DNA from: a virus
Reading direction: 5' to 3' (one strand)
Virus record (IMG/VR): IMGVR_UViG_3300025141_012093
Location: 1 to 64,000 of that record
Length of the DNA stretch: 64,000 nucleotides
Shown here: one piece after another, positions 9,937 to 61,089 of the stretch
Position numbering within the stretch: position 1 is the stretch's first letter
Layout: every line of letters starts with the position of its first letter
Translations under genes and position numbers: made by a program
Notes under the pieces: generated by a model
Told to the model about the DNA's origin: nothing
What the model saw: only the letters and a program-made list of their open reading frames with translations
The model's database searches: none

Positions 9937-9983
9937 GAAAGTAACCTCTTACCAAGATAAATAGTTGAACATATTAATAATTG

Positions 9984-52529: not shown

Positions 52530-53213
52530 CTACTCCATATTGTTAAGTTCTTCTAGTACCTTATAAAGTTGAGGACTTGCCTCTCTAATATAATCACCAT
52601 TGTTTAAATAGTAATCTTCAAAACCAGTTGCAAAATACTCTCTTAAGGAAGTGACAGCATAAGGATTAATAAAAAGACCTATTGTTAATGATTCTATTAT
52701 ATCGTAGCCGACATCTTTAAGCAAGAAAAAATCAAACTTTTTTCGATATTGCGGGTTCTCAAAATCATAAAGGTGAGTGTCGTAGTTCATATAGCGCAAT
52801 AATCTTTCTAATTTTTTGCGCTTGCCGAGGAATTCTTGTTCAATCTGCCCATTTAAATAAAGCTCGCTGCCATAATGTTCTTCTACTGCGTGGGCCAGTT
52901 CGTGAATTATATCGTCAATGATATCGTCATCGTTTGTTTGATCATTAGTTAGATATATGGTTCCATCCGAATACATAGCATTTATATGTCGGTCTTCTAA
53001 CTTTTGATATTTACCAATACGTACCGATTCTACTAGTTCTAAAATGTAGGGAGGGACGCGCTCATTGATAAACAAAAAGACGTTATTAAGATCAATAGTG
53101 TCAGGCAGCGGGGCATCTATAAAAACTTCAATACTAGAAAAATTATGATATTTAGCCTGCTGCTGCCTTTCTCTATGAGCTTCTTTAATCAGTTTTTGTA
53201 TCGGATTGTTCAT
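52530..53213 (-). CDS. Putative zinc metallopeptidase-like protein (HExxH)
   Basis: About 227 residues. The zinc site HELAHAVEEHYG lies near the middle, in IDDIIHELAH, followed by a Glu-rich helix that could supply the third ligand. Targets are unknown; phage proteins of this type may process structural proteins or be non-catalytic. The ATG at 53211-53213 is preferred because AGGAG lies 13 bases upstream, although that spacing is long. A frame-open ATG 39 bases earlier lacks any ribosome site. It overlaps the neighbouring acidic gene. Confidence 0.65.
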   Translation of the reverse strand: MNNPIQKLIKEAHRERQQQAKYHNFSSIEVFIDAPLPDTIDLNNVFLFINERVPPYILELVESVRIGKYQKLEDRHINAMYSDGTIYLTNDQTNDDDIIDDIIHELAHAVEEHYGSELYLNGQIEQEFLGKRKKLERLLRYMNYDTHLYDFENPQYRKKFDFFLLKDVGYDIIESLTIGLFINPYAVTSLREYFATGFEDYYLNNGDYIREASPQLYKVLEELNNME

Positions 53214-53496
53214 CAGTGTCTTGGGGCTCCTGTTCAGATAAATACTCTTCATAGGCTTTTTGTCCAGTTTCTACGTCAGTTAAAGCTTGTCGATAGCCTC
53301 TAATCCAATTCTCTTCAGCAACAACTGCTAAAAATTCTGGAAATTCTTCAGCCACTGTATTAACAATCATTTGTACTGTTACTTCATCTTCATCGGGTTC
53401 TGTCTTATCTCCCACATAGGTAACAAGCATCTCTTTAAGAGGTGTTTCGCCGTCAACGGTTTCCTCTAATTGTGGGTTTTGATCTTCTAGTAACAT
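53185..53496 (-). CDS. Small acidic protein of unknown function
   Basis: A 103-residue protein rich in Glu and Asp (pI very low by inspection), with a middle amphipathic helix (VQMIVNTVAEEFPEFLAVVAEE) and an acidic, Gln/Asp-rich C-terminus. AGGAG precedes the ATG well. No domain is seen. It lies 56 bases downstream of the PhoH stop and overlaps the HExxH gene start. Confidence 0.6.
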   Translation of the reverse strand: MLLEDQNPQLEETVDGETPLKEMLVTYVGDKTEPDEDEVTVQMIVNTVAEEFPEFLAVVAEENWIRGYRQALTDVETGQKAYEEYLSEQEPQDTDEQSDTKTD

Positions 53497-53552: not shown

Positions 53553-54866
53553 TTATAAAACTTTGGCCGCTAATGTGGCAACTTTAGATCGTTCTCCCTT
53601 TGTCAGAGAAATATGACCGGCAAGATCAAAATCCTTAAATTTTTCAATTGCATAAGTCAATCCATTTGAAGTTGAATCTAAAAATGCATTATCAATTTGT
53701 TCAACATCTCCAGTTAAAATAATTTTAGTATTTTCCCCAACTCGGGTCACAATGGTTTTTAATTCGTGAGGACTTAAATTTTGTACCTCGTCGATAATAA
53801 CATATGCGTTAGAAATGGAACGGCCTCGAATATAACTCAATGCTTCGATTTCAATTGTGCCGTCATCGTATAAGTGTTCAATATTTTTAGTGTTTCCGCT
53901 CATTAGGAAGTCCAAGTTATCTTGAATTGGCATTAACCAAGGGCGCATTTTTTCTTCCAAAGTGCCGGGTAAAAATCCAATATCTTGGGAGCCCATAGCT
54001 TGTACTGGCTTTGATACTATTAATTTTTTATATATGTTCTTTTCTAAAACTTGTTCCAATCCAGCGGCCAAAGCAAGGAGAGTCTTCCCTGTGCCAGCTT
54101 TGCCTGTTATTGTTACAATAGGAATATTTGGATCGCTTAATAAATCTAAAGCAAATTTTTGTTCCTTGTTGCGAGGATGGACGCCCCAAGCTTCATTTTT
54201 ATAATCGTTAATATTAACAATTGGTGATTGATAATTTGTAAACTTTGCAAGAGCAGTCTTCTTTTCATTCTCGTTCGAAACTAACATAATATATTGATTG
54301 GGGTAAAAGCTTCCCTCATCAGGCTCAAGGGATAATTTTTCTTTTCCAATATAAAACTGGTCAATAAATTGGTCATCTACCAAGTGAGTAGCAATACCTG
54401 AGAATAGTTCATCGTGTGTGTCAATAAGTTTATTAGTCTTGTATTCTTCGCTCGGGAAACCCAGCGAATCACATTTAACGCGCATATTGATATCTTGAGT
54501 AACAAGAATCACTTTTTTTCTTTTGTATTTTGCTTTTTCTTTTAAAGCTGTGGAGATGATTTGATTATCTGCATCCTCTTTTTCGAGGCCATCTGGCATA
54601 TAGATAGGGTCAAAGGCCCTAACAGATAATTTGCCGTGGCCATCAGGGATTTTTACTCCTGTGTGTAAATCGCCGTGGGCTCTCAAATCATCCAAAATGC
54701 GGATAAAGTGTCGAGCGTTTGCGCCGACGCCATCTTGACGTTTTTTATGCTTGTCGATCTCTTCTAACACCTTCAATGGAATGATGATATCGTGATCTTT
54801 AAAAGTGAATAAAGCCGTTGAATCAGCCAAATGAACATTGGTATCCAACACATATGTTTTTTTCAT
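53553..54866 (-). CDS. phoH: PIN-PhoH fusion protein (PhoH2-like ATPase/RNase)
   Basis: A 437-residue protein. Residues 1-150 form a PIN domain: YVLDTNVHLAD with the first acidic ligand, then EEIDKHK, DADNQIISTAL and VTQDINMR. Residues about 230-437 are the PhoH ATPase: Walker A GKAGTGKTLLAL near 262, PVQAMGSQDIGFLPGT, Walker B YVIIDEVQNL near 357, and LTGDVEQIDN. PhoH2 proteins are RNA helicase/RNase units; phages often carry PhoH. AGGA precedes the ATG. It diverges from the plus-strand lipoprotein gene. Confidence 0.93.
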   Translation of the reverse strand: MKKTYVLDTNVHLADSTALFTFKDHDIIIPLKVLEEIDKHKKRQDGVGANARHFIRILDDLRAHGDLHTGVKIPDGHGKLSVRAFDPIYMPDGLEKEDADNQIISTALKEKAKYKRKKVILVTQDINMRVKCDSLGFPSEEYKTNKLIDTHDELFSGIATHLVDDQFIDQFYIGKEKLSLEPDEGSFYPNQYIMLVSNENEKKTALAKFTNYQSPIVNINDYKNEAWGVHPRNKEQKFALDLLSDPNIPIVTITGKAGTGKTLLALAAGLEQVLEKNIYKKLIVSKPVQAMGSQDIGFLPGTLEEKMRPWLMPIQDNLDFLMSGNTKNIEHLYDDGTIEIEALSYIRGRSISNAYVIIDEVQNLSPHELKTIVTRVGENTKIILTGDVEQIDNAFLDSTSNGLTYAIEKFKDFDLAGHISLTKGERSKVATLAAKVL

Positions 54867-54928
54867 TAATCATCCTTGCTTAAATTAAATGAACCAAAAA
54901 GTTACACCTTATATATATTTACTTTAAG
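54867..54928. promoter_or_regulatory. Divergent intergenic region with TATATATA element
   Basis: 62 bases between the divergent phoH (minus) and protease (plus) genes. It contains an A/T block TTATATATATTTA at about 54910-54922, near-symmetric and close to the T4 late -10 TATAAATA in either direction. For the plus gene it sits only about ten bases before the ATG, so a start very near the gene would be needed. The -35 side is not obvious. Promoter role is inferred from the divergent layout. Confidence 0.35.
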
Positions 54929-55681
54929 ATGAGAGTCTCGTTAATCATATTTTTTCTTTCTATAATATTTAGCTCCTGTAGTAAGAATAATGACAATAAT
55001 TTTATAAATGCTCGTGATTCATTTGTAAATGTAATAATTGAAGAAAAGGTTACGATATGCGATGAGGGCGCCTGTTATCAAAGAACTTTTAAGGCGTCAA
55101 GTAGTGGCGTAGTTGTTATGTTTAAAAATAACAAGGTGGTTCTAACAGCAGGACATTCCTGCACTCCAAAAGATCCTAAAGAGATGCAAAAGCATGTTGA
55201 TGGTGACATAAAGATCGAGGTTGCAATGTATGGGTATGATATCCACAAGATGAAGCATCTTTTTGAAGTTGAGAAAATCGACATCGGAGAAGATATATGT
55301 GTTTTATCTGCTAACACGCTTTGGCAAGATGCTGTTCCGGTGGCTACTAAAATCCCGAAATACAATGAGAAGCTTTATAATTTTGCTGCTCCTCACGGTA
55401 TTTTTACAAACCATATGGTTCCATTATTAACTGGATATTATGTAGGACAAAGAAGCGAAATGGCCGCTTTCACGATACCAGCAGCAGCAGGTTCTTCGGG
55501 ATCTATGATACTGAACAAGAAGGGGCAATTAGTGGGGATGATCCATTCAGTTCATAGTGAATTTAATCATTTTGCACTGTCACCTACTCTAGTTTCTTTA
55601 AAATATTTTTTAGAAATCAGTAACAAAGAAAGAGTAGACTATTTTATTCAAAACATAGAATCATCAAGCATACTTCCGTAG
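54929..55681 (+). CDS. Secreted trypsin-like serine protease lipoprotein A
   Basis: A 250-residue protein on the opposite strand to its neighbours. Signal peptide 1-16 with lipobox FSSC (Cys17), so a host envelope lipoprotein. The trypsin fold triad is complete: His76 (LTAGHSC), Asp122 (GEDICVL), Ser190 (GSSGS). Cys44 and Cys49 may pair. It is a clear paralogue of the protein at 56475-57374, sharing VYNFAA/LYNFAA and LVGMIHSVHS. Its 3' end overlaps the converging minus gene by 34 bases. The ribosome site is weak. Confidence 0.85.
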   Translation: MRVSLIIFFLSIIFSSCSKNNDNNFINARDSFVNVIIEEKVTICDEGACYQRTFKASSSGVVVMFKNNKVVLTAGHSCTPKDPKEMQKHVDGDIKIEVAMYGYDIHKMKHLFEVEKIDIGEDICVLSANTLWQDAVPVATKIPKYNEKLYNFAAPHGIFTNHMVPLLTGYYVGQRSEMAAFTIPAAAGSSGSMILNKKGQLVGMIHSVHSEFNHFALSPTLVSLKYFLEISNKERVDYFIQNIESSSILP

Positions 55682-55986
55682 TCTTGGCGGCCAAGGCGGG
55701 AATCAAGCACTTTTTGATAAGATTGATAAAGAGCAGATAACCTACGGCCAGCGTCGATGGGTCCGTCGTATTGCCTTTTTAATTCGTACTCATCTTCTTG
55801 GAGAGGAGGGAAAGACGGTTTAAGTTCCCAACGGCCTGATAGCGATTGTTCTACGGTTCCAATCGAGCGGCCATCTACTATAATTTCAGTTTTGTAAGAA
55901 TCTATTTTAGTAAACTTGGTAACTGTTTTATCTTTCTTTTTCTTCTTAAGATAAGAGTCCAACATTTGCTTACTTTTCTTTTTCAT
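55648..55986 (-). CDS. Unknown basic small protein
   Basis: A 112-residue protein with a very basic N-terminus (MKKKSKQMLDSYLKKKKKDK), a short beta pair (TEIIVDGRSIGTVEQSLSGRWEL) and a helical C-terminus with GRRLSALYQSYQ. No family is recognised. Its 3' end overlaps the protease A gene by 34 bases on the other strand. The start overlaps the nucleotidyltransferase end by 17 bases, with GGAA upstream. Confidence 0.6.
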   Translation of the reverse strand: MKKKSKQMLDSYLKKKKKDKTVTKFTKIDSYKTEIIVDGRSIGTVEQSLSGRWELKPSFPPLQEDEYELKRQYDGPIDAGRRLSALYQSYQKVLDSRLGRQDYGSMLDDSMF

Positions 55987-56416
55987 TTTCCGTGTTTCCT
56001 ATGGCCATCGCGACGATTTCTCCAGCAGATGGTTGAAAATTCTTGCCTAAAAAGAAGAGCATTCCTATGCCAAGTTCTTTGCATACTTCAACTTCGGGAG
56101 TGTTATCGATGGTGCGGCCACCGCCGTTTCCAAAAAAGTCCGGTTTTAATTCTCTAAGAGTTGTGCAAACAGTTCCATCTTCATCTTCAGCGGGCACGAC
56201 GCTAACGACGCCAGGGATTTGCATAAGAATGCTTCTCCTTTTTCTAAAAGGAAGGAAGTTTTTGCCGTCCCATCTTCTTTCAGCGCACCATTTATCGCTA
56301 TTAAGAATTATAACCACATCTCCCAATTCAGTTGCTTCTTGAATCATTGCTATCTGTCCTCTGGTTGGCGGATCAAAGCCTCCGCTTAGGACAATAGTTG
56401 GTTGTTTCACATCCAT
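55970..56416 (-). CDS. Cytidylyltransferase-fold protein with altered HxGH motif
   Basis: A 148-residue Rossmann nucleotidyltransferase related to heptose-1-phosphate adenylyltransferase (HldE C-domain) and glycerol-3-phosphate cytidylyltransferase: VLSGGFDPPTRGQIAMIQEA, VIILNSDKW, LPFRKRRSILMQI, DEDGTVCTTLRELKPDFF and NTPEVEVCKELGI. The catalytic HxGH that should follow GGFDP is PTRGQ (residues 17-21), and the GGDR block reads GGGR. Both histidines that bind the NTP phosphates are lost. It may be inactive or use a different mechanism. It might otherwise supply an activated sugar for the island. Confidence 0.8.
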   Translation of the reverse strand: MDVKQPTIVLSGGFDPPTRGQIAMIQEATELGDVVIILNSDKWCAERRWDGKNFLPFRKRRSILMQIPGVVSVVPAEDEDGTVCTTLRELKPDFFGNGGGRTIDNTPEVEVCKELGIGMLFFLGKNFQPSAGEIVAMAIGNTENEKEK

Positions 56417-56474
56417 TTTGGTTTTCTACCTCTAGTTACATATAGCCAATAACATTAAAAGGATACCACAAATC
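56417..56474. promoter_or_regulatory. Divergent intergenic region before protease B
   Basis: 58 bases separating the nucleotidyltransferase start (minus) and protease B start (plus). AAAAGGAT about ten bases before the plus ATG is a good ribosome site. No clear -10 or -35 is visible; the sequence is AT-rich. The plus gene must have its own promoter because both upstream neighbours are on the other strand. Confidence 0.3.
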
Positions 56475-57374
56475 ATGCTAAAATTTAAAATGTATTTATT
56501 CAGCTTAGTCAGTTTATTGTTCCTTGTTTCCTGCTCATCTTGCAGTCACATCCCTATCAAAAGTCAGTACAAGTTAGGCGATTTGATCAATATCGATTCA
56601 ATGGTTAAAGTTGAATCGGTATATATTATTGAGCACTGTATTGGTGAAAGTTGTAATACATATAAAATGATGTCTACTTCTTCAGGATCGGCTGTTGCTA
56701 AATCTGAAGGCGGCAAATACATTTTAACAACAGGCCATACTTGCAATCCTGCATTTGGCGTCCCTTATGGACTTACAAACGTCAAGGTCACGCAACACAC
56801 ATTTGTTGTTGACTCAGAGGGCAAGAGGCACGCTACAGTAACTGTTGATTTTGATCAATCACAAGATGTGTGTATACTGCACTCTAAAACCTTGGATGTG
56901 CCGCTATTGCCAATTGCTTGGGATGATGCGCCAGATGTGGGAGACAAAGTATATAATTTTGCCGCTTCCCTTGGTGTATTTGGAGAAAAAACAATCCCTG
57001 TTCTTGAAGGAAGATATTCCGGTAAATATTGGGGGATGTCTCTGTACACAATTCCTACTATTGGAGGAAGCTCAGGGTCACCGATATTCGATGTTCGTGG
57101 CAGATTAATTGGTATGATTCACTCGGTACATAGTCGATATCATCATTTGTCGTTTGGGCCGAGGCACAAGGACCTAATGAAATATATTAAAATGAACACT
57201 TCTCACAATGTTCCAAGAGGCATTCGAACTGAGTGGACAGATATTCCTGAAAAGAAATCAAAGAAGATTTATCTTGATGAAGTAGGGCTTAAAAAATACC
57301 TAGACAAAATTAAAACTCAAGAATGTGATTGCGAAGGTCCTGAGTGTTTATCTAAATGTATTAACTTTAAGTAA
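56475..57374 (+). CDS. Secreted trypsin-like serine protease lipoprotein B
   Basis: A 299-residue paralogue of the protease at 54929-55681. Signal peptide with lipobox LVSC (Cys20). Triad complete: His88 (LTTGHTC), Asp131 (SQDVCIL), Ser200 (GGSSGSP). The fold core is shared (VYNFAASLGVFG, YTIPTIGGSSGSPIF, LIGMIHSVHS). It has an extra C-terminal tail of about 60 residues ending in a Cys cluster (CDCEGPECLSKC). It converges on the ClpP-like gene with an 8-base overlap. Its AGGAT ribosome site is good. Confidence 0.87.
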   Translation: MLKFKMYLFSLVSLLFLVSCSSCSHIPIKSQYKLGDLINIDSMVKVESVYIIEHCIGESCNTYKMMSTSSGSAVAKSEGGKYILTTGHTCNPAFGVPYGLTNVKVTQHTFVVDSEGKRHATVTVDFDQSQDVCILHSKTLDVPLLPIAWDDAPDVGDKVYNFAASLGVFGEKTIPVLEGRYSGKYWGMSLYTIPTIGGSSGSPIFDVRGRLIGMIHSVHSRYHHLSFGPRHKDLMKYIKMNTSHNVPRGIRTEWTDIPEKKSKKIYLDEVGLKKYLDKIKTQECDCEGPECLSKCINFK

Positions 57375-57999
57375 CGATCTCATCTACAAGGCCATATTTT
57401 AAACACGTTTTGGCATTCCACCATAAATCGTGCTTAAGCATTTTAGCAAGTTCTTTTTGAGGAATTTTGGTATGCTTCATATAGATATCTTTAATGGTTT
57501 TCATTAAGAGTTCATTATTAGTCATATCATCCTTTAGTTCCTCATACTTACCCCAGGCCCCAGCAGATAGTTGATGTATAAGCATAAAAGAGTGCTCGTG
57601 TATCATTCGATGCTCACCCACAACGCTCATCATTGTTGCTGCTGATGCGGCACAACCATCAATGACAGTTGTGACCGGGACTTCCGATGTCCTAATATAA
57701 TCAACGGCTGAAAAGCCAGCAAAAACGCTACCTCCATAGGAATTGATATGAAGGTATAAATCTCCAATAGCTGTGGATTGTAGAGCATTCGCTTTATTCA
57801 ACATATTGATTTCTAGATTCTTTAAAGACTTATTCAAAGCAAGAATTTTAGGACGAGTAACTTCTGAGTAAAAATATATTCTATTGTTAGCTGAAGTTAC
57901 TTGATCTTTTTCTGAGTTACCACCAGCTTCATCTCCCCCTCGGGTGGCATTGGGTTGTTCGTCCGAATCTACTTCGGAAATCCACTTAGTTGAAATCAT
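57367..57999 (-). CDS. clpP: ClpP-like serine protease
   Basis: A 210-residue ClpP-family protease. Triad: Ser119 (GCAASAATMMSV), His142 (MLIHQLSAG), Asp191 (HDLWWNA). The strand LYLHINSYGGSVFAGFSAVDYI and KYGLVDEIV are typical. The N-terminal 40 residues are an extra acidic segment that could be a propeptide or targeting sequence. In phages ClpP-like proteins act as prohead proteases or modulate host proteolysis; no Clp ATPase is in the window. AAGGA precedes the ATG. Confidence 0.9.
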   Translation of the reverse strand: MISTKWISEVDSDEQPNATRGGDEAGGNSEKDQVTSANNRIYFYSEVTRPKILALNKSLKNLEINMLNKANALQSTAIGDLYLHINSYGGSVFAGFSAVDYIRTSEVPVTTVIDGCAASAATMMSVVGEHRMIHEHSFMLIHQLSAGAWGKYEELKDDMTNNELLMKTIKDIYMKHTKIPQKELAKMLKHDLWWNAKTCLKYGLVDEIVT

Positions 58000-58250: not shown

Positions 58251-58260
<10 letters not shown>

Positions 58261-59012
58261 GTATACTCATTCAGAAGCAACACTTTCCAAGTATCTCTCC
58301 AGCTTTTAACGTTAGTAATCTGATGTCGATACTTTGATTGTTTTATTGCAGAAGCAAGGGCAAAGTCGTTTCCTCCAGGCTCAGTTCGGTCACCAAAAAA
58401 ATTGATGACCGTGTTATCACAGATCATATCATTAGATTCCAGATATGTTAAGACTTGAGATTTATCTTTGCCAGGATTAAAGATATCAATGCTAATCTCG
58501 CCTCCGACTACGGCAGTAATCTTATCTTCATATTTGGTATTTAAAACTGATGTAAACAACCTTCTTTCACTTTCTTTCTTATCAAATAAAGAATATTCTT
58601 TACGATCCTCTTGAGTGGCGTTGCGACCGACGACGGAAAAATTAATCATCCCTATGCGGTCTTCAATGTGATTCCCACGACGCTTAGGATATTTTGAAGA
58701 AAGAATCTTTTCTTTTAAATCTTCTCGGAGGCCATCAGGCTCAACAAAATCGTTTTGATAGATTTGCTTTCCATATTGATAGAAACAATTGCCCATACAA
58801 GTAAAGACGCCGTGGACAGTTTTAAGGACACTTTCGGGTAATTGGGCCTTAATCTTCTCAAAATCGCTCCCAGAAGCAAGATAAACTTGATGTTTTGAGG
58901 CAAATTCTGTAAAGAATGAAGCAAAATTTGGATGTACAAGCTGACGAGGTGGGGTAAGAGTCCCATCAACGTCAAAGATGTATATTTCTTTTATTTTAGC
59001 GGTTGAATTCAT
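58251..59012 (-). CDS. Eukaryotic-type phosphomannomutase (PMM2-like HAD)
   Basis: A 253-residue HAD-superfamily enzyme that matches animal and plant PMM: FDVDGTLTPPRQ with Asp14 and Asp16, GSDFEKIKAQLPESVL, KRRGNHIEDRIGMINFSVVG, RNATQEDRKEYSLFDKKE, VVGGEISIDIF and FFGDRTEPGGNDFALA. It interconverts mannose-6-phosphate and mannose-1-phosphate, feeding GDP-mannose for Gmd (25406). Bacteria usually use the unrelated ManB. Its TAG stop lies inside the 5' end of tRNA-Arg. Its ATG overlaps the upstream small gene by 17 bases. Confidence 0.92.
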
Positions 59013-60971: not shown

Positions 60972-61044
60972 CTGTGGAGGCAGGTCTCGAACCTGCAACC
61001 CCCTGGTTAACAGCCAGGTGTACTACCAGTTGTACTACTCCACA
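60972..61044 (-). tRNA. trnN(guu): tRNA-Asn(GTT) without encoded CCA
   Basis: A 73-base cloverleaf: acceptor TGTGGAG with CTCCACA, anticodon stem CCTGG-CTGTTAA-CCAGG with anticodon GTT (61011-61009), T arm GCAGGTTCGAGACCTGC, discriminator G. The next bases are TCA, not CCA, so the end must be added by a CCA enzyme, unlike tRNA-Arg in this window. It reads AAC/AAT. The next coding start on the transcript follows 15 bases later. Confidence 0.93.
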
Positions 61045-61089
61045 CTAAGAAACATCTGATTATAACTAGTAGAGGTGCTGAAGTCAATA

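Follow-up and report, generated by a model that had tools for sequence, protein, structure and literature searches.

Two predicted lipoprotein protease genes on the opposite strand

The window analysed here, meaning the whole stretch of bases 1-64000 of a 68,420-base IMG/VR record (IMGVR_UViG_3300025141_012093) from an uncultured virus of bacteria, carries on its plus strand two genes, here called P1 and P2, that encode trypsin-fold serine proteases with lipoprotein signals and run opposite to nearly all other genes (Table 1). The two proteins, having the lipoboxes IFSSC and FLVSC, respectively, share 31% identity over 217 aligned positions (BLASTP, E 2e-33), and P2 has an additional Cys-rich tail at its C-terminus. 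The Pfam family Trypsin_2 (PF13365, cut-off 27.6 bits) matched P2 with 49.0 bits and P1 with 27.3 bits when searched as protein, just below the cut-off, or 28.7 bits, above it, when searched from DNA; the triad positions of both proteins agreed with the family-wide alignment described below. An earlier note, made from the sequence of the window, had proposed a paralogous pair of serine proteases with complete triads and lipoboxes, separated by minus-strand open reading frames (ORFs), and these analyses bore that description out. Its statement that they are the only plus-strand genes also holds as far as tested: of the 12 ORFs that a crude caller placed on the plus strand of the whole record (68,420 bases), only P1 and P2 had homologues in three related genomes compared (~186 kb).

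The ratio of non-synonymous to synonymous substitution rates (dN/dS) against the nearest relative, NG86, was 0.07 for P1 and 0.03 for P2, these being rough values with dS already at 1.6-2.0. Both genes were furthermore present, with strand and order unchanged, in all of six close-relative IMG/VR contigs (L001/L007, L002/L008 and L004/L012, each pair being one contig, as well as L003, L005 and L006), amounting to about five independent cases since L003 and L004 share gene versions; P1 is incomplete in the contig of L006, at the contig end, and in L001/L007, where it meets a run of N. The low dN/dS together with this recurrence shows that P1 and P2 are real genes and not chance ORFs, and an antisense artefact, considered for both, was rejected because homologues exist and dN/dS is low. 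In L001 the end of P1 and the start of P2 are separated by 62 nucleotides (nt) with no gene in between, and it is therefore the minus-strand genes between the twins, not the proteases, that make up the variable part of the locus.

Conserved residues and predicted export

The first members of the family were found by a profile search of viral contigs with both proteins, giving 42 loci and 50 ORFs including the two of the window; because it looked for a lipobox-like stretch and for GMIHSVH, the rows thus found are biased for these features. For the family alignment, 54 members were chosen by hand from the scanned loci. The triad of His, Asp and Ser was present in all 54 members, as were a Cys two residues past the His (HxC/GHxC) and another two residues past the Asp (DxC), with two other cysteines found in 53 of 54 each. 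A short signal with a lipobox Cys, which at the sequence level marks a bacterial lipoprotein, was seen in 52 of the 54 rows (the misses being L082 and L071, with the start codons of a few rows uncertain), including 20 of the 22 aligned rows that were found with a different bait gene as described below. The residue following the lipobox Cys (+2) was A, S, G, V, T or K, and in none of the 52 was it Asp. The HSVH stretch was less fixed: of the 54 members, 47 had His 216 and 41 had His 219.

From these signals we infer that P1 and P2 are exported and then lipidated. In E. coli, an Asp at +2 retains lipoproteins in the inner membrane, and since the +2 residue was never Asp, outer-membrane sorting is the default guess; the proteases would then probably be anchored in the outer membrane on its periplasmic side. 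The conserved cysteines are predicted to form two disulfides, one of which would bridge the stretches next to the catalytic His and Asp, and the protease activity would lie outside the cytoplasm. With two such disulfides, maturation only outside the cytoplasm would fit.

Relation to HtrA-type and other proteases

The structure model of P1, made from a thin alignment, had a predicted local distance difference test score (pLDDT) of 75.0, and that of P2, made from a deep alignment, had a pLDDT of 87.7 and a predicted template modelling score of 0.77, with its protease core mostly in blocks of 93-98. Fold searches with both models returned HtrA-type protease domains and, together with the triad in 54 of 54 members, place the proteins among the chymotrypsin-fold serine proteases. 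Aligned by VIA-align, P2 gave a Z of 23.4 to Rv3671c/MarP (root-mean-square deviation 2.0 over 185 residues) and 23.2 to DegS, with values of about 22-23 across DegS, DegQ and DegP; rows within 1 Z were counted as tied, which makes MarP and DegS tied.

P1 and P2 thus resemble the HtrA family (DegP, DegQ and DegS; peptidase family S1C) in the fold of the protease domain, the triad and the predicted periplasmic setting, but differ from it in having no recognised PDZ domain, in their predicted lipid anchor, in their conserved cysteine pairs and in scoring far below curated cut-offs. The HtrA/Deg model of NCBIfam, TIGR02037, gave 12.7 bits for P2 and 20.9 bits for the best of five members against a cut-off of 416, the MarP model NF033740 gave 18.3 bits for P2 against 250, the DegS model was also far below its cut-off, and the nearest NCBIfam model, NF041521, gave 34.7 bits for L041 against 450. 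No PDZ family in Pfam matched P1 or P2 at E 1. Most of the VIA-align rows stop near P2 residue 243-255, with some DegS rows reaching residue 298 in a low-confidence region of the model; P2 has about 55 residues past the protease domain, mostly of low confidence, and P1 has less room. A PDZ remnant could conceivably lie in this modelled tail of P2. MarP, as is predicted for P1 and P2, is an envelope-anchored serine protease; its active site is stabilised by a disulfide and it is held by several transmembrane helices, in place of which P1 and P2 have a lipobox signal. The HxC and DxC cysteines, candidates for a disulfide that might resemble that of MarP, occur throughout the alignment when counted by presence. 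As judged from the models, the family is a predicted PDZ-less, HtrA/MarP-like lipoprotein serine protease.

Weaker profile matches were to V8/glutamyl endopeptidase and the staphylococcal Spl proteases, the V8-type likeness being confined to the surroundings of the catalytic serine and the following loop, and HtrA chains outranked both when a deep profile was used. The weak V8 matches hinted at a glutamate-type specificity for the GMIHSVH loop, but in a count by eye against the V8 numbering its His is placed one position off that of V8. The nearest phage profile was PHROG 9683 'protease' (E 2.2e-5 to P2 and 1.9e-8 to the member in the related genome G012), and BFVD held trypsin-like proteins of other phages, with the best match 22% identical (E 3.9e-14) and with A0A516MAS3, Rhizobium phage AF3 and uncultured Caudovirales as examples, and the trypsin fold is therefore not new to phages as such. 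No tblastn match to P1, P2 or the G012 member was found in the 50,697 phage records of INPHARED, from which records near to the window were possibly excluded. Two short peptide patterns searched in genome contigs gave 73 pattern matches and none that was a confirmed relative, which is weak evidence of absence, and among the titles listed from an open-licence library none was on such a phage lipoprotein protease or on the CTATTTA/CTAGTTA motif discussed below. As far as these searches reached, large tailed phages of one lineage are the sole carriers of the family.

A constant place next to phoH

In the first set of loci the protease gene adjoined phoH wherever phoH was held, with one small ORF between them in several loci. 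Because that set had been selected on protease motifs, a second search was made with a different bait, the M90-like metallopeptidase gene located three genes from P1, which had 515 relatives in IMG/VR in one scan and is a common gene of uncultured phages. The counts given here concern the best 80 of these 515 relatives, those most like the bait gene of the window, of which two loci were without phoH. Among the 59 loci having more than 1,200 bases beyond phoH, 50 carried a family member by phoH; of the 19 loci with less sequence, 10 showed one and 9 did not, so that the count becomes 60 of 69 once cut loci still showing the protease are added. Ten contigs among the 60 had also been part of the first set, and the loci from which the bait alignment was built all bore the protease; among relatives less similar to the window's bait gene, the proportion may drop. 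The protease gene was divergent from phoH in 56 of the 60 loci (48 of the 50) and had the same direction in L070, L071, L087 and L089, with a gap of up to 567 nt that exceeded 150 nt in 21 of the 60. Two of the nine loci without a protease by phoH carried a family member elsewhere on the contig (G030, a strong match, and G024, a weak one). As for copy number, 21 of 22 records had one copy and a single record, a contig of the window's own group, had two; all of 14 large records, 7 of which were in an earlier record set, had one copy.

Two loci lacking a protease by phoH were also inspected by eye. Both encode a predicted lipoprotein in which a CxxC stretch resembles that of thioredoxin, directly upstream of phoH in L117 (3018-3629) and one gene further away in L109 (2559-3275). 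A different gene that acts on the envelope may occupy the site in these cases.

Two old subfamilies in one genome

In a maximum-likelihood tree of the 54 members, P2 grouped with L014, L016, L018, L019, L021, L022, L024 and L029 (support 99/97), and P1 with L013, L017, L025-L028, L030, L031, L033, L100 and others (support 99/98). Forcing P1 and P2 together was rejected by the approximately unbiased (AU) test (p = 0.0002), in a tree of which several rows were flagged by the tool as long-branched and in which the twins had been the group of interest before it was seen. The tree and the AU test thereby also reject a recent tandem duplication. In a quick phoH tree, the window grouped with L016, L019 and L100 (Shimodaira-Hasegawa-like approximate likelihood ratio 88, not starred), of which L016 and L019 hold the P2 type and L100 the P1-side type. 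Considering the different clades, the AU test and the types held by these phoH neighbours, the twins are two old subfamilies brought or kept together in one genome, either by transfer or by an old duplication with losses. The identity to relatives was 59-79% for P1, 78-92% for P2 and 88-95% for PhoH, P1 being the faster-changing of the twins.

An oriented promoter-like motif

G012, G007 and G009, as the three related genomes are called, have nearly all their genes on the same strand. Of the ORFs on the other strand, three, two and two, respectively, have homologues, and the protease alone is common to all. The heptamer CTAGTTA was present upstream of P2 in all six aligned sequences (the window, L001, L002, L003, L005 and L006). 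It is a one-base variant of CTATTTA, a motif found upstream of tail genes and the most enriched intergenic 7-mer in G012. Over 766 called genes of four records (the three genomes and the window), CTATTTA stood within 80 nt upstream of 56 genes in the forward and 11 in the reverse orientation, and CTAGTTA of 16 and 7, respectively, which makes the oriented CTATTTA a candidate late-promoter element of the lineage. Orthologues sharing CTATTTA across genomes included the tail tube gene (by PHROG match), the large gene before it, which by its position would be the sheath gene, and phoH; the protease was the sole orthologue group that shared CTAGTTA. CTATTTA occurs mostly as ACTATTTA, upstream of tail and other genes, with examples in the window's record at 9958, 62774 and 65186 (minus strand).

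We also counted both forms in 72 distinct divergent phoH-protease regions, each extended 100 nt into the called protease ORF. CTA[GT]TTA pointed toward the protease in 47 of the 72 regions (mean of mononucleotide shuffles 7.2), being CTAGTTA in 41 and CTATTTA in 6, and toward phoH in 44 (shuffles 5.6), with CTATTTA in 40 and CTAGTTA in 5. The shuffle comparison is not independent, as the motif had been found in these regions, and the whole-genome oriented excess is the better support. An exact CTA[GT]TTA facing P1 is missing from the phoH-P1 region of the window itself, and over the window as a whole CTAGTTA is no commoner than expected (3 found, 7.1 expected). A protein with sigma-70 region 2 is encoded in all four large records tested, and it is plausible that this phage protein reads the CTATTTA-type motif. 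Scans of general kind gave 21 sigma-70 promoters against 15.9 in shuffles (standard deviation (sd) 4.5) and 7 terminators against 3.5 (sd 2.0), both within 2 sd.

Two further observations concern possible signals. One CTAGTTA lies at 61063-61069 on the minus strand of the window, 18 nt upstream of a tRNA-Asn gene (60972-61044), and for CTAGTTAnnnnTAG the reading as an RNA hairpin was considered, as a candidate only.

Neighbouring genes and the virus lineage

The features of the locus are collected in Table 1. The ORF overlapping the end of P1 is missing from L001, L003, L004 and L006, the M90-like metallopeptidase has a HELAH motif, and at 58251-59012 (minus strand) the window encodes a HAD protein that resembles phosphomannomutases of the eukaryotic type (Pfam PMM, E 2.2e-34), here found in a phage.

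Table 1. Features at the protease locus of the window.
Feature	Position	Strand	Description
M90-like metallopeptidase	52530..53252	-	Pfam match below cut-off; bait gene for the conservation test
PIN-PhoH protein	53553..54866	-	Usual neighbour of the protease gene in related contigs
phoH-P1 divergent intergenic region	54867..54928		62 nt, genes head to head
P1	54929..55681	+	Trypsin-fold protease, predicted lipoprotein, 250 amino acids; triad H76/D122/S190; C44, C49, C78, C124
ORF between the twins	55648..55986	-	112 amino acids; overlaps the P1 3' end by 34 nt
Nucleotidyltransferase (CTP_transf_like) between the twins	55970..56416	-	Missing between the twins in L001
CTAGTTA element	56432..56438	+	36 nt before the P2 start codon; candidate promoter element
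P2	56475..57374	+	Trypsin-fold protease, predicted lipoprotein, 299 amino acids; triad H88/D131/S200; C55, C60, C90, C133
ClpP-like gene	57367..57999	-	Runs toward P2 and overlaps it by 8 nt; many relatives have it close to the protease

The TerL of G012 was 45% identical over 88% of its length to that of an uncultured 484-kb phage, 44% to that of Flavobacterium phage immuto and 42% to that of Microcystis phage Mel-JY01, followed by T4-like cyanophages at about 30%; in immuto and Mel-JY01, 20-kb stretches around the exonuclease gene showed no such protease by annotation. An N-terminal, MKITKxxLKQIIKEEL-like stretch heads 13 otherwise different small proteins, with seven in G012 (L131, L135, L136), three in G007 and three in G009, and none of the 84 proteins of the window's record; it might be a targeting or packaging tag. 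G012 also encodes a 632-residue predicted lipoprotein (L136:2173-4071, minus strand) that has metal-binding motifs of MopE and matches VWA weakly, a possible hint to the host.

Possible functions of the proteases

Most likely, P1 and P2 are exported, outer-membrane-tethered proteases that remodel the envelope of the infected cell. Their purpose and substrate are a guess, set beside a gene, fold, triad, conservation and position that were established computationally. We tentatively prefer a reading in which the protease would, in the course of infection, cut a single envelope protein of the host or a small number of them, whereupon the infected cell and its debris would no longer adsorb or admit related phages, and in which this virus would owe two specificities to its two versions, which diverged long ago. 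The opposite strand together with CTA[GT]TTA on the protease strand, in the majority of the 72 regions, suggests a separate transcription, and phages do use outer-membrane lipoproteins for such ends: in PMC9586334, Llp of phage T5 is described as a phage outer-membrane lipoprotein that excludes superinfection, and Llp and Cor are, like P1 and P2 as predicted, phage-encoded outer-membrane lipoproteins. Several points weigh against exclusion. Llp and Cor are small binders and not enzymes, in contrast to the 250-299 residues and protease fold seen here, the Llp gene adjoins that of a receptor-binding protein, unlike P1 and P2, and many exclusion proteins are made early according to the same source, whereas likeness to the motif of the tail genes suggests that the proteases may be expressed late. 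Nine of the 59 loci have no protease by phoH, and seven of these contigs, which are fragments, show no copy anywhere. Nor is there a sign of positive selection at this resolution, dN/dS being low (0.02-0.17) wherever dS was measurable, and the speed of P1 alone proves nothing, since the neighbouring M90-like (61-62% identity) and nucleotidyltransferase (66-74%) genes evolve about as fast. The mechanism is moreover a proposal drawn from sequence and models.

We rank exclusion first, late envelope breakdown a close second and HtrA-like upkeep third. The divergence between the two copies, like the lack of the gene in some relatives, somewhat favours exclusion or counter-defence, and the CTA[GT]TTA element, which argues for late timing, somewhat favours breakdown. 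In the latter case, possible though a little less probable, the protease would be made with the late genes and cut outer-membrane or tethering proteins for lysis or virion release, as a proteolytic counterpart of spanins. CTATTTA before the tail genes in three genomes and the related element before the protease agree with this, and searches for cell-wall hydrolases leave room for it: SLT or Phage_lysozyme matches over cut-off were found in none of four records, which had two weak SLT matches below it. A lysis cassette was looked for in G012 as well, where no lysis family was found in Pfam for ten lysis or lipoprotein candidates, nor in PHROGs for seven of them. Yet the protease does not lie beside any recognised lysis gene, it was not seen in some relatives, and its predominant element is the CTAGTTA variant, so that its timing may differ from that of the tail genes. 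A stand-in for HtrA, which would degrade misfolded envelope proteins or adjust the envelope stress response of the host as the phage overburdens export, is less probable still; the nearest folds being the protease domains of DegS/DegP/HtrA and MarP, the nearby ClpP-like and M90-like protease genes and the GroEL encoded by G012 would suit it, but the lack of a recognised PDZ domain and the scores far below the NCBIfam cut-offs do not.

Removal of an envelope-located host antiphage factor, with two versions for two types of defence, would fit the old diversity, the two subfamilies in one genome and the absence by phoH in some relatives, but we consider it unlikely, as no defence target is known and the PADLOC matches (RT-Protease_XI and LmuA) were weak and probably reflect the shared trypsin fold. 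The earlier note had regarded the genes as independently expressed cargo (morons), perhaps serving superinfection exclusion, removal of envelope receptors or toxin processing, of which exclusion is also our leading guess. The opposite strand and a candidate promoter element of their own would agree with independently acquired genes of no fixed role, but presence of both copies in all six close-relative contigs, the constant place by phoH, the low dN/dS and the single copy in nearly all records contradict sporadic acquisition, leaving cargo very improbable; the protease gene instead appears to be standard equipment in this group of viruses. That note would have given up its view for virion or lysis proteins shared by all close relatives: sharing was indeed found among the relatives examined, an identity as virion or lysis protein was neither shown nor excluded, and the lipoprotein signal makes a virion protein less likely.

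Exclusion could also be enzyme-based across the whole lineage, which we regard as doubtful. A disulfide-locked outer-membrane protease would then destroy or trim the receptor of competing phages, the subfamilies would be specificity types, of which some genomes, including that of the window, stack two, and the gene would be fired in the opposite direction from CTAGTTA, its own variant of the CTATTTA promoter element of the phage.

What is new here is a predicted lipoprotein relative of HtrA and MarP that has no recognised PDZ domain and sits at a constant position in a lineage of uncultured phages. The protease offers a concrete, testable enzyme for phages that are largely unknown, and the oriented CTATTTA motif together with the phage sigma factor gives a handle on their transcription programme. 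If our reading is true, phages of this common uncultured lineage, by keeping an exported protease in place, would have a new means of altering the surface of the infected cell.

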